64,000 nucleotides of DNA from Venturia oleaginea. Taxonomy: Eukaryota; Ascomycota; Dothideomycetes; Venturiales; Venturiaceae. Below are positions 9,765 to 35,642 of the stretch, in pieces; position 1 is the first letter of the stretch, and every line of letters begins with the position of its first letter. Both the position numbers and the translations under genes were made by a program. The stretch covers positions 124,001 through 188,000 of the forward strand of contig JABMLP010000027.1 of NCBI GenBank assembly GCA_013176395.1, written 5' to 3'. The notes below the pieces were generated by a model. That model was not told the origin of the DNA. It did not search any database and was given only the letters and a program-made list of their open reading frames with translations.

Positions 9765-10111
9765 GTGAATTGTTTTCTATGGATTGTTTTGTTCTTGTAT
9801 TGATTCACTTTGCGGTTTGTTGTATCCTGCACCTTTATTCTGCCTCAGTTGCATTTTCTCGGGATGGTTGCATTATTACCACGGATGCCGGACTTCGGTG
9901 TGCCGTGTGGTTCTTTCCTTCCATGGGCAAAGGAAGGGAATTTGCTTTCTGTAGATACACAGACGCGAGCAAGCTGGAATAATATCAAGCCTACATATAC
10001 CTTCACAAACCCATTCAATAACGCCACCTTCCCCCATCTTACACCTTTATTTTGTCTTATCTACGGACATGGGATACCTTCTTGGTTTTTGATAGAGCAG
10101 CTTTCAACGTT
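9765..10111. other. Intergenic, nothing recognised
   Basis: Convergent 3' flanks of the LSD1-like gene and the small secreted gene. No feature seen. Confidence 0.4.
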
Positions 10112-10710
10112 CTAAATATCCTACACGTTAGCCTCAGATACAGAAGCTGTCCTCTCCTCTCTTCGATAAGGTAGAGAATACTTACGCATTGATAAACCGT
10201 GACATTGTGGTTACTACAAAAATCTTTACTAAATTTGTCTTGGTGGCAAACCTTCTCATGTTGATTGTCACAGCCCTTGTAACGGTCAGAAAGAGAGGTA
10301 CAAGCTGTATTGCGACTGAGCTTCGCCAATTTCAGGTCCCAAATGTCCCCAGATTCATGCCGTTCAACAGTCGGCAGCGACGACGAGTAGCTCTAGGGCG
10401 GGAGGGCTTTAATCCGGCCAGTCTGTAACTTACCCTGTAACCGTTGTCCCCACCGCCCCAGCAGCAATCTTACGATTGTGTGCACTGTATATTTGTGTTA
10501 GCGCAGCGGCATGAGTTCGGGATGTGGTGAGTAGAGGTAAGGGGTAATGTATATAATTTAAAAGGGGCAGGAGTGCAGAGTAAACACGTTGGGGTTTGTA
10601 TGAAGGATGGGATGCTTTACAGCGAAAGCGATTGGAGCAAAAGCCAGGGCGACGAGGCCGGCGAGGCCGGCAAGGGCGAGGCCGAGAGAGATGACGGATA
10701 GGGATTGCAT
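10112..10710 (-). CDS. Small secreted cysteine-rich protein, candidate effector
   Basis: Proposed minus-strand exons 10710-10621, 10468-10434, 10315-10186 and 10120-10112, giving 87 residues. Exon 1 encodes a complete signal peptide (MQSLSVISLGLALAGLAGLV, then ALAFAPIAFA). Exon 3 carries the mature Cys-rich core: TACTSLSDRYKGCD, EKVCHQDK, DFCSNHN, VYQC (five Cys). The last exon adds only Asp-Ile and a stop after an intron with a textbook branch (GCTAACG) and GTAAGT/TAG ends. Introns 2 and 3 are well supported. The acceptor of exon 2 (TAAG) is the weakest choice, because the better-looking ATACAG upstream is out of phase. Family unknown; the odd Cys count suggests dimerisation or a wrong boundary. 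Confidence 0.5.
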
Positions 10711-16841: not shown

Positions 16842-17486
16842 GTATTGGGAGACGGTACGAGCTTGCTGAGGTAATTGAGAGATGCCTTCTCTTTGATTTG
16901 TACTAGGCGAGGCTGTCTTTCCATTGAGGAAGGTGATGATATCCAGCTCCTTGGTAGCGACATAGGGATCGACTTGTACAGATTGAATGCGCGACCGTAC
17001 TCGTACTCGTACGCTATACAAGGGACGTTTTCCGTAGGAATTCTGGACCGACGTCTCCACTCTGCTATGAGGGTCTAATAAGATTCATTACTCTCCTATC
17101 CCGCATAGCATACATAGTACTACGTGGTAATAGTTGTATTTAATTACTTCATCGTCGTCCATGTCGACTACAGCAGGACCCCACGCTTTTCGAATGCCGA
17201 TACCCCTATGAACTATATTATGTAGCTTGCGCCGCTTGCCAGGAGCTGCCATGAGAGATGCCGAATCCCAATTATATTATCTCCATTGGTTACTTCACTT
17301 CGAGAAGGGATTGGGAGATGAATTCGACTCAACAACCATCTGAAAGGATTGGGACATGTGTAGCGGCCGTTGATCCTTCCGACGAGGATAACCCCATCTC
17401 GTCGCATTCCACTCTTCTCTACACGTCTTCCTGTTACATCCTGCTTCTGTGCAATCCTGTACTACGCCATGCCTTGAGCCATCGCC
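16842..17486. other. Intergenic upstream of the LaeA-like gene
   Basis: No gene recognised. The final about 150 bp, pyrimidine rich, is probably the leader of the methyltransferase gene. Confidence 0.4.
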
Positions 17487-22790: not shown

Positions 22791-23031
22791 CAAGATCGGA
22801 AACGAATCATTCTCCATCACATTCAAGTTCAAACCAATCCCGCTCTTCATGACTCCATAGTTTTCATTAATTTCGTAAACGAAAAATCAATCAATGCAGT
22901 CCCGAAAACCACTCCGAGCTAACCCCACAAAACCCACGCACCTACAAAAATTCAACCTTGAGTCACAGCCGCACAACAAACAACTAGCACCGGTTTTATA
23001 AACTACTGAAAGTCAATTCTCTGCATATAAC

Positions 23032-23158
23032 GCCCTGCTGGCGCAATGGTAGCGCGCGAGACATCTAATCTCGAGGCTGCGGGGTATGTTATTCCGCTGG
23101 TCTGTGAATCCTACCGTTTCTAATGCTACAATAACTAGTTCGAGTCCCGCGTAGGGTT
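23032..23158 (+). tRNA. tRNA-Arg (anticodon TCT) with a 55-nt segment splitting the T arm
   Basis: Cloverleaf by hand: acceptor 5' strand GCCCTGC (23032-23038), D stem GCGC/GCGC (23041-23044, 23052-23055), anticodon stem CGAGA/TCTCG (23057-23061, 23069-23073) with loop CATCTAA, T stem 5' strand GCGGG (23079-23083), then 55 nt, then T loop TTCGAGT, T stem CCCGC (23146-23150) and acceptor GTAGGGT (23151-23157). All stems pair (two G-T wobbles in the acceptor). The inserted segment 23084-23138 starts GTATGT and ends AACTAG. Fungal nuclear tRNA introns normally lie only next to the anticodon (37/38), so this position is abnormal. Base 33 is A instead of the near-universal T. A T run follows at 23182. 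Functional status unknown. Confidence 0.75.
23084..23138 (+). other. Intron-like 55-nt insertion within the tRNA gene
   Basis: Begins GTATGT (the commonest fungal spliceosomal donor), contains TTTCTAATGC as a possible branch region 18-24 nt from the end, and ends TAG. Removing it restores an exact 5-bp T stem and 7-nt T loop. No flanking target duplication is seen. Confidence 0.6.
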
Positions 23159-23181: not shown

Positions 23182-23186
23182 TTTTT
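23182..23186 (+). terminator. Putative RNA polymerase III terminator
   Basis: Run of five T, 24 bp after the tRNA end. Confidence 0.5.
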
Positions 23187-33518: not shown

Positions 33519-35642
33519 ATGAGCTATGCCTACGACGACTTGCGATCGAGTCGGGACAACTTCCGCGAACCACAGGGATTAACTGGTCAAGCTACGTTGG
33601 CTTTTACATGGGCACTTGCGAGTGTGAGGGGATTATGGACGAGGCAAAGACATACTGTTGGAGGAGCGGGAGGAAGAGAGAATATGCCTAGAAAGAGTTT
33701 CGTGAGGAGAGTATGCAGTTTGGGAAACATACTTATTTTGCTTTGGCTGTATGTGCTTTATTGGGGGGAGAGGACCGTGTTCGATCGTGCGATTGAGGAG
33801 TGTGATTGGAGGCATTGGGAGAATTGGGTATGTTCTACATGTTCTGAGTTGGGGAATCGTTGGGTATTGTTTGGTTGGTTTACTGACGGATCGTGGCAGG
33901 CCCCAGGAGCACAACCTCATCATGTCGCTTTCGTCGCGGACCCTCAACTCGTTGATCCTCATACCTATCCCGGACGACCTTGGCCGCTTTCTACACTCAC
34001 AATATGGTACACGGATGTCTATCTGGAAAGAGTTTATAGGTTGATGCAGGAGAGATTGTACCCCGATACTACCATTTTCCTTGGGGATCTATTCGATGGA
34101 GGAAGAGAGTGGAGTGTCCGCGGCGGAGAAACCTGGGACAATCCCGACAAAGATTTCAAGAGATATGGAGAGGCCTACTGGGTGAAAGAGTACAAACGCT
34201 TTAGCAAGATCTTTTTCAAGACATTCACGAAAACGGGCGTGGGGCCGAGGACAGGCCAAACGATAAGGAGGAAGATTATTTCGACATTGCCTGGGAATCA
34301 CGATTTGGGATTTGGAGAGGGGGTGCATAGGCCGGTGAGGAATAGGTTTCATGCTTATTTTGGGGAGGGAAATCGGGTTGATGTGGTGGGGAATCATACT
34401 TTTGTTTCGATTGATGCAGTTTCGATTAGTGCAAAGGATCCGGATCACGGGAGGATGAATGAGGATATCTGGGGGCCGACGATGGAGTTTTTGGACACTG
34501 TGCAAGAGACGAGGAAAAAGGCGATTACCAAGGAGCTCAAATACCAGTTTGGAAGTGAGACTGCGGATACGAGACCTCGATACGGGCATGGCGTTGTTGA
34601 GACGGATCAGCTGAAGGCTGCTACGCTACCATCTGCGAAGTTGTTGGAGGATGTGACGCTGCCGACTATTCTCCTGTCCCATGTACCTCTATACAGAGAC
34701 GCGGAGACACCATGTGGCCCTCTACGAGAACATTGGCCTCCTTCGAAGAACGTGGATGGCACACTAATGGAAAAGGACGACCGAAACGCCCTTTCTATAT
34801 CTCGAGGATATCAGTACCAGAACGTCATATCCGCGGATCTGACAAAAGACATCACCACCAAAATAGGCGACATTCAATACGCCTTTTCTGGCGACGATCA
34901 CGATTACTGCGAGGTCGTTCACAGGAGATATCCTTCAGGCGGCGGCGGAATCAGAGAAATAACGGTGAAATCGATATCATGGGCAATGGGCGTGCGAAAA
35001 CCGGGATTTTCGGTCCTGAGTCTCTACAATCCTATCGACGCCAATGGCAAACCTATACACACCTCTGGCGAACAGACGCTACAGCATCATCTCTGCCTTA
35101 TGCCCGATCAACTTGGCATTTTCATCAAGTACATCCTCCTCCTCGTTTTTACCCTTTCTTGTCTACTGCTTAGGGCAGGACACATGGCAAAAAATCCTCA
35201 GAAATCACAGTTTGCGGGTCCGGATAGTCCGCTGTTACCTACCAACAACGGCGCGGACAAGGGGAAATGTTCGAGTTCAGGGACGTCCAGTGACGACGGT
35301 CTCACCCAACACTCCTACCCTGAAAGCAACGGAGGAAAATTAGCTTCCAGACCTTCAGCCAAAAAGGAAAGAAGTGTTTCTCCATTGGGTGGATATGGAT
35401 TACCTCCTCCCGCGCATTCTAAACAGACACAGAGTGCAATTCCGTACGCTGTACCACTTGTTTCGTATGCGGGATATTATCCTGATCGGGTTGACAGGGA
35501 TTTGGAGAAGGATGATGTTTTTGTTGATAAGAGGAAGAGGTTGAAGGGATTGAAACTTTTTTATGCCGAATTTCAGTGGAGTGTTATCAAGGTTGCTTAT
35601 GTGGTGCTTGCTTGGTATGTGTATTTGCTGTATAGAGGATAG
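33519..35642 (+). CDS. Cdc1/Ted1-type membrane metallophosphoesterase (GPI-anchor remodelling)
   Basis: Exons 33519-33827 and 33900-35642, intron GTATGT...GGCAG (72 nt, stop-free multiple of three), 683 residues. An N-terminal transmembrane helix (GNILILLWLYVLYW) precedes a metallophosphoesterase domain with ADPQ (D117), GDLFDG (165-170), GNHD (235-238), SHVPLYR (H364) and GDDHDYC (434-440). The last motif replaces the usual GHxH and is typical of the Cdc1/Ted1/PGAP5 family. Two more hydrophobic helices (FIKYILLLVFTLSCLLL; VAYVVLAWYVYLLY) lie near the C-terminus. Family members act in the ER on ethanolamine phosphate of GPI anchors, aiding ER exit of GPI proteins, and need Mn. Intact. Confidence 0.9.
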   Translation: MSYAYDDLRSSRDNFREPQGLTGQATLAFTWALASVRGLWTRQRHTVGGAGGRENMPRKSFVRRVCSLGNILILLWLYVLYWGERTVFDRAIEECDWRHWENWVCSTCSELGNRWVLFGWFTDGSWQAPGAQPHHVAFVADPQLVDPHTYPGRPWPLSTLTIWYTDVYLERVYRLMQERLYPDTTIFLGDLFDGGREWSVRGGETWDNPDKDFKRYGEAYWVKEYKRFSKIFFKTFTKTGVGPRTGQTIRRKIISTLPGNHDLGFGEGVHRPVRNRFHAYFGEGNRVDVVGNHTFVSIDAVSISAKDPDHGRMNEDIWGPTMEFLDTVQETRKKAITKELKYQFGSETADTRPRYGHGVVETDQLKAATLPSAKLLEDVTLPTILLSHVPLYRDAETPCGPLREHWPPSKNVDGTLMEKDDRNALSISRGYQYQNVISADLTKDITTKIGDIQYAFSGDDHDYCEVVHRRYPSGGGGIREITVKSISWAMGVRKPGFSVLSLYNPIDANGKPIHTSGEQTLQHHLCLMPDQLGIFIKYILLLVFTLSCLLLRAGHMAKNPQKSQFAGPDSPLLPTNNGADKGKCSSSGTSSDDGLTQHSYPESNGGKLASRPSAKKERSVSPLGGYGLPPPAHSKQTQSAIPYAVPLVSYAGYYPDRVDRDLEKDDVFVDKRKRLKGLKLFYAEFQWSVIKVAYVVLAWYVYLLYRG

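Follow-up and report, generated by a model that had tools for sequence, protein, structure and literature searches.

Canonical eukaryotic tRNA introns lie between positions 37 and 38 and are handled by the tRNA splicing endonuclease and a ligase. A tRNA-Arg(TCT) gene within the 64,000-nt window of Venturia oleaginea DNA analysed here is interrupted at a different place, in the T arm, by a short insert with the ends of an mRNA intron. Two readings of this locus had been offered by the initial annotation: an mRNA-type intron that has entered a tRNA gene, or a tRNA pseudogene that was interrupted very recently. To judge by its sequence and that of the related genes described below, the gene very probably is one of many nuclear tRNA genes across the genome with short U2-type spliceosomal introns outside 37/38, whose Pol III pre-tRNAs would be processed both by the spliceosome and by the tRNA endonuclease.

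Structure of the interrupted tRNA-Arg(TCT) gene

The interrupted gene occupies positions 23032-23158 of the window on the + strand, as called by ARAGORN on the spliced sequence; all features of the locus given here lie on this strand. Exon 1 (23032..23083) covers tRNA positions 1-53 and comprises the 5′ strand of the acceptor stem, the D arm with the A box, the anticodon arm and the 5′ strand of the T stem. It was assigned with ARAGORN on the spliced form and matched itself at 100% and a second tRNA-Arg(TCT) gene, on contig C6, at 98%. The anticodon TCT is at 23064..23066. Base 33 (23063..23063) is A, as had been noted for this gene, where T is usual and where the C6 copy has T. The spliceosomal-type intron of 55 nt (23084..23138) separates positions 53 and 54 and can be placed in two equivalent ways, one base apart. 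It begins with the 5′ splice site GTATGT (23084..23089), contains a branch-site-like CTAAT (23120..23124) whose A lies 15 nt upstream of the intron end, and closes with AACTAG, the AG of which forms the 3′ splice site (23137..23138). Exon 2 (23139..23158) supplies the T loop, the 3′ strands of the T and acceptor stems and the discriminator base.

A TATAAA sequence was read 30-35 bases upstream of the tRNA (22997..23002) and is a possible Pol III TATA element, and a run of five T residues downstream (23182..23186) is a probable Pol III terminator. When the insert was taken out, ARAGORN called tRNA-Arg(TCT) and 12/12 acceptor and T-stem pairs formed, which bears out the earlier description of a tRNA-Arg(TCT) gene split at 53/54 by 55 nt. 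With the insert left in, ARAGORN returned nothing when introns were disallowed; allowing them gave only a spurious Pyl(cta) call that assumed a false 37/38 intron. No tRNA was called by ARAGORN without introns over the whole window. The B box had been described as kept. This holds only in part: the junction reads AGTTCGAGTCC, which differs from the consensus GGTTCRANYCC at its first base.

The window intron and its flanks matched only themselves in the genome in a DNA search that skipped very common words. Origin of this intron as an introner-like element was rejected, as the same search gave no near-identical copies.

Interrupted tRNA genes across the genome

One protein encoded in the window (33519-35639) has its best named matches in Venturia inaequalis (84% identity) and V. 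nashicola (83%), in keeping with a place of the organism in the Venturiales. The genome (46.08 Mb, 61 contigs) was searched for tRNA genes with A-box patterns and the Rfam tRNA model. The best 63 of 1697 candidates from the Rfam search were scored; many genes were missed by this search, which was used as a start only, and the covariance model served only for checking loci. The first A-box search gave 24 matches, comprising 18 clear tRNA genes (9 interrupted), one ambiguous match on contig C22 and 5 non-tRNA sequences. The second gave 48 matches, 47 of which were read (C38:2085 was left out), with 16 tRNA genes, 10 of them interrupted. A further 43 matches contained 32 tRNA genes (Thr, Ala, Phe, Lys, Gln, Asp, Val and Pro), none of which was interrupted as judged by eye or with ARAGORN. 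Adding Gly(CCC) and the 9 uninterrupted genes known through the Rfam search alone brings the nuclear tRNA genes read to 76, and 20 of these carry 23 spliceosomal-type inserts; this set, sorted by eye, is incomplete.

Several other loci were recorded during these searches. The initiator-Met-like tRNA gene at C15:296570, in which the T arm and 3′ part are duplicated in tandem, was counted as uninterrupted. The tRNA-like gene at C22:334855 has a good A box and B box with an ambiguous acceptor stem and anticodon. On contig C58 (18.9 kb), two AT-rich tRNA genes of mitochondrial appearance (10061-10132 and 16942-17013) are identical and face opposite ways, probably as parts of an inverted repeat. 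Two weak tRNA-like sequences, identical to each other and similar in their flanks, were seen at C19:646319-646392 and C60:820814-820887, one of them near the end of contig C19. A stretch common to contigs C26, C31 and C45 round a chance A-box match is a dispersed repeat.

The interrupted genes are Arg(TCT) (two), Trp(CCA) (three), Arg(TCG) (two), Arg(CCG), His, Ser(AGA) (three), Ser(GCT) (four) and one gene each of Ser(TGA), Leu(TAG), Leu(CAG) and Gly(CCC). The 23 inserts are located in the D loop (1), the 5′ strand of the anticodon stem (2), the variable loop (3), at 51/52 (1), 52/53 (9) and 53/54 (2), and in the T loop (5). All three Trp(CCA) genes are interrupted in the variable loop, both Arg(TCG) genes and Arg(CCG) at 59/60, and His at 52/53. 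In two Ser(GCT) genes the anticodon stem and the T stem each contain an insert. Some interrupted genes also contain an ordinary 37/38 intron, and Leu(CAG) is interrupted three times, by inserts in the D loop and the T stem and by a 37/38 intron. The Arg(TCT) gene on C6, found with the spliced tRNA as query, has T33 and a 51-nt insert (GTATGT...CTGAC...ATAG) at 53/54.

In 9/22 tRNA inserts (eight at 52/53, one at 51/52) the final G of the intron restores GGTTCRANYC in the DNA; the window insert is not among them, and inserts in the T loop break the B box. Because the promoter survives such an insertion, 52/53 may have become the commonest site.

Splice signals of the inserts and of control introns

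Splice signals were scored in 24 inserts, 22 from tRNA genes and two from U6 genes. GT..AG ends were present in 23/24, the window intron among them; random stretches of the window given the same freedom of placement had such ends in 1.2% of cases. The branch-site motif CTRAY was found in 20/24 inserts, its A lying 9-18 nt from the 3′ end; shuffled inserts gave a mean of 3.2, and 0/1000 shuffles reached 20. The motif is absent from Trp-1, the Leu-CAG D-loop insert, Ser-GCT-3a and Ser-GCT-4b. Insert lengths were 49-58 nt, with one of 89 nt. The T-loop insert of Arg(CCG) (C12:1294742+) starts with ATAAGT in place of GTAAGT and has CTGAC and CAG; it is either an AT..AG intron or carries a 5′ splice-site mutation. 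The insert of Ser-GCT-5, noticed later and outside the 24, also has GT..CTAAC..AG. Candidate GT..AG introns of coding sequence that join the reading frame and show similar signals measured 47-74 nt, and none of them was confirmed by homology; the motif was present at only 10/43 candidate sites, two of the ten being one place.

Canonical 37/38 introns of the same genome provided an internal control. These were the 32 introns that ARAGORN puts in the anticodon loop, with the isotype misnamed for some; 0/32 had GT..AG at any of nine placements, and their lengths were 6-46 nt. This control bears on the reading of the inserts as non-canonical tRNA introns of the bulge-helix-bulge (BHB) type, cut by the tRNA splicing endonuclease as in Cyanidioschyzon merolae and archaea, with the GT..AG ends incidental. 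A precedent for the 53/54 site exists, since excerpts of a study of C. merolae place its tRNA introns at 12/13, 37/38 and 53/54 (PMC9602550). If the ends were incidental, the recurrence of GT..AG and CTRAY in the inserts would be hard to reconcile with the lack of GT..AG in the true 37/38 introns. A central BHB helix with 4/4 pairs was found in 3/22 inserts against a shuffled mean of 2.7, using a test of a single central helix over five registers that is simpler than a full BHB search. The window intron, sited at 53/54 and not at 37/38, reached at most 2/4 pairs. As the central helix was, in this simple test, no commoner than in shuffled introns, the BHB type was rejected, and we regard endonuclease cutting of the inserts as highly improbable.

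Isoacceptors, spliced products and paralogues

Both copies of Arg(TCT) that were found are interrupted (2/2), as are all copies of Trp(CCA) (3/3). Intact copies of either were not found in searches of this genome with spliced tRNAs, A-box patterns and DNA queries, with the best candidates scored. These searches were not exhaustive and the DNA search missed the known Leu(CAG) gene, so that an intact Trp or Arg(TCT) copy may have been overlooked. A cell without tRNA-Trp cannot read UGG; if no copy was missed, the Trp introns must therefore be removed.

The spliced forms were evaluated as tRNAs. With only the spliceosomal-type inserts taken out, 37/38 introns left in and introns allowed, ARAGORN called 20/20 sequences as tRNA and 18/20 with the assigned isotype, the exceptions being Trp-3, called Gly(tcc), and His-GTG-1, called Thr(tgt). 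With introns disallowed, 0/20 of the unspliced genes were called. Tallied over the 20 genes after excision, 234/240 acceptor and T-stem pairs were formed. The six failures were one each in His-GTG-1, Ser-AGA-4 and Trp-CCA-1 (acceptor) and three in Ser-GCT-5; His-GTG-1, Ser-AGA-4 and Ser-GCT-5 look decayed. A run of five T residues lay within 60 nt downstream in 12/15 interrupted genes with 60 nt of flank, compared with 3.8% of random stretches. Those without one were the C6 copy of Arg(TCT) (Arg-TCT-2), Ser-AGA-4 and Ser-GCT-5.

Mature bases were identical between interrupted paralogues at 71/72 positions for Arg-TCT, 72/72 for Arg-TCG and 81/81 for Ser-GCT-3 versus Ser-GCT-4. The introns of paralogues, compared with their ends left off in 8 pairs, resembled each other no more than shuffled introns did (a fraction of 0.20-0.81 of the shuffles reached the observed similarity). 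Four Ser-GCT intron pairs gave fractions of 0.07, 0.49, 0.62 and 0.08, and the two low values may reflect a trace of shared ancestry. Near-identical exons round diverged introns indicate that the spliced product has been under selection.

These results bear on the pseudogene reading, here extended from the window gene to the whole set: tRNA copies would have been hit by small insertions, and overlooked intact copies would do the work. Such a view accords with the A33 of the window copy, with the stem mismatches of the three decayed-looking genes and with the intact relatives present for Arg(TCG), Ser(AGA), Ser(GCT), Ser(TGA), Leu(TAG) and His. It also accords with the available text of a review, in which D- or T-arm insertions in eukaryotic tRNA genes are mostly read as pseudogenes (PMC4090602); no word built on "spliceosom" appears in that text. 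It sits poorly with the lack of any Arg(TCT) or Trp copy found intact, the conservation of exons between paralogues with diverged introns and the stem pairs kept. Splice signals, too, are not to be expected of random insertions and argue against it. For the class as a whole the pseudogene reading is thus very unlikely, and the mRNA-type intron that had been proposed for the window gene is strongly supported as a class.

The window copy itself requires a separate judgement. The intact Arg(TCT) gene on which its dismissal as a pseudogene would have depended was not found, and the sole other copy found, that on C6, has a different insert at the same place. Because of A33, through which the window copy may be impaired, weak or dead, the pseudogene reading may still apply to this copy. 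A version compatible with the preferred explanation is that the class is real and the window copy is a dying member, its decoding ruined by A33, with the T33 copy on C6 supplying tRNA-Arg(TCT). We put this slightly below an even chance: the window copy keeps its TATA element, its T-run terminator and all its acceptor and T-stem pairs, and it is the C6 copy that has no T-run within reach.

Other Pol III genes

Seven matches to U6 were obtained. One partial match aside, four are full-length without an insert, three of them judged by span and the fourth by reading, and two contain introns. The U6 introns, of 52 and 58 nt, are at different sites and have GTAAGT...CTAAC...CAG or ACAG (C12:1178070-1178275; C36:59820-60030). 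The ACAGAG box is changed in the copy at C12:1178070-1178275, which may be a pseudogene. No insert was seen in 33 matches to 5S rRNA, 31 of them 120 bases long and the others 121 and 106, judged by span only in a search where interrupted copies could rank too low for scoring.

Proposed processing

The preferred explanation, spliceosomal introns in functional tRNA genes, would entail the following order of steps. Pol III would transcribe the interrupted tRNA genes, and the spliceosome would take out the GT-(CTAAY)-AG intron in the nucleus. With the intron removed, the T arm or other disrupted arm could fold, after which end processing and export would take place. The 37/38 intron, where present, would be cut last, by the tRNA splicing endonuclease and ligase; in budding yeast this cutting happens in the cytoplasm.

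The sequences suggest that the spliceosome is needed for making tRNAs in this fungus. A stronger form of this claim, which we consider likely, is that the spliceosome is an obligatory tRNA processor in this lineage, in that no nuclear tRNA-Trp or tRNA-Arg(UCU) would be made without it and some genes would have three introns served by two unrelated splicing systems (for Leu-CAG, the spliceosome at the D loop and T stem and the endonuclease at 37/38). Were the introns spliced as their signals say, translation in this fungus would depend on the spliceosome through tRNAs, and the spliceosome would act on Pol III transcripts whose exons measure ~20-50 nt. The varied intron sites would provide a test bed for intron entry into structured RNAs. 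A tRNA finder overlooks such genes, as the ARAGORN runs without introns on the unspliced genes and on the window indicate.

Comparison with known systems

No report of spliceosomal introns in tRNA genes was recognised among the titles and abstract openings searched, which included few subscription papers and no bioRxiv preprints. Introner-like elements account for a spread of spliceosomal introns in Dothideomycetes. The present introns differ from these in that the window intron has no other genome match and paralogous introns, compared pairwise, share little beyond signals.

Spliceosomal introns are known from other stable RNAs. In Schizosaccharomyces pombe the Pol III RNA U6 carries an mRNA-type intron (PMC10484740), and so do two U6 copies of the present genome. 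U6 differs in being part of the spliceosome, with an intron thought to derive from reverse splicing near the catalytic site, whereas tRNAs are not spliceosome parts. Lichen rDNA, in the portion of the report available, has spliceosomal introns of ~57 bp that are also removed in yeast (PMC8527467) and offers a further case of mRNA-type introns in a stable RNA of another polymerase; that case concerns rRNA and Pol I, and the present one tRNA and Pol III.

Among tRNA introns, those of C. merolae are alike in occupying the D, anticodon and T arms, 53/54 included, and the D and T introns are removed first there, according to the same excerpts (PMC9602550). They differ in being bulge-helix-bulge introns; the inserts of this genome show no enrichment of the central helix and have spliceosomal ends. 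The canonical 37/38 introns of this genome likewise lie within nuclear tRNA genes, some of which carry both kinds. They measure 6-46 nt and are without GT..AG ends, whereas the inserts sit elsewhere in the tRNA and bear splice and branch signals.
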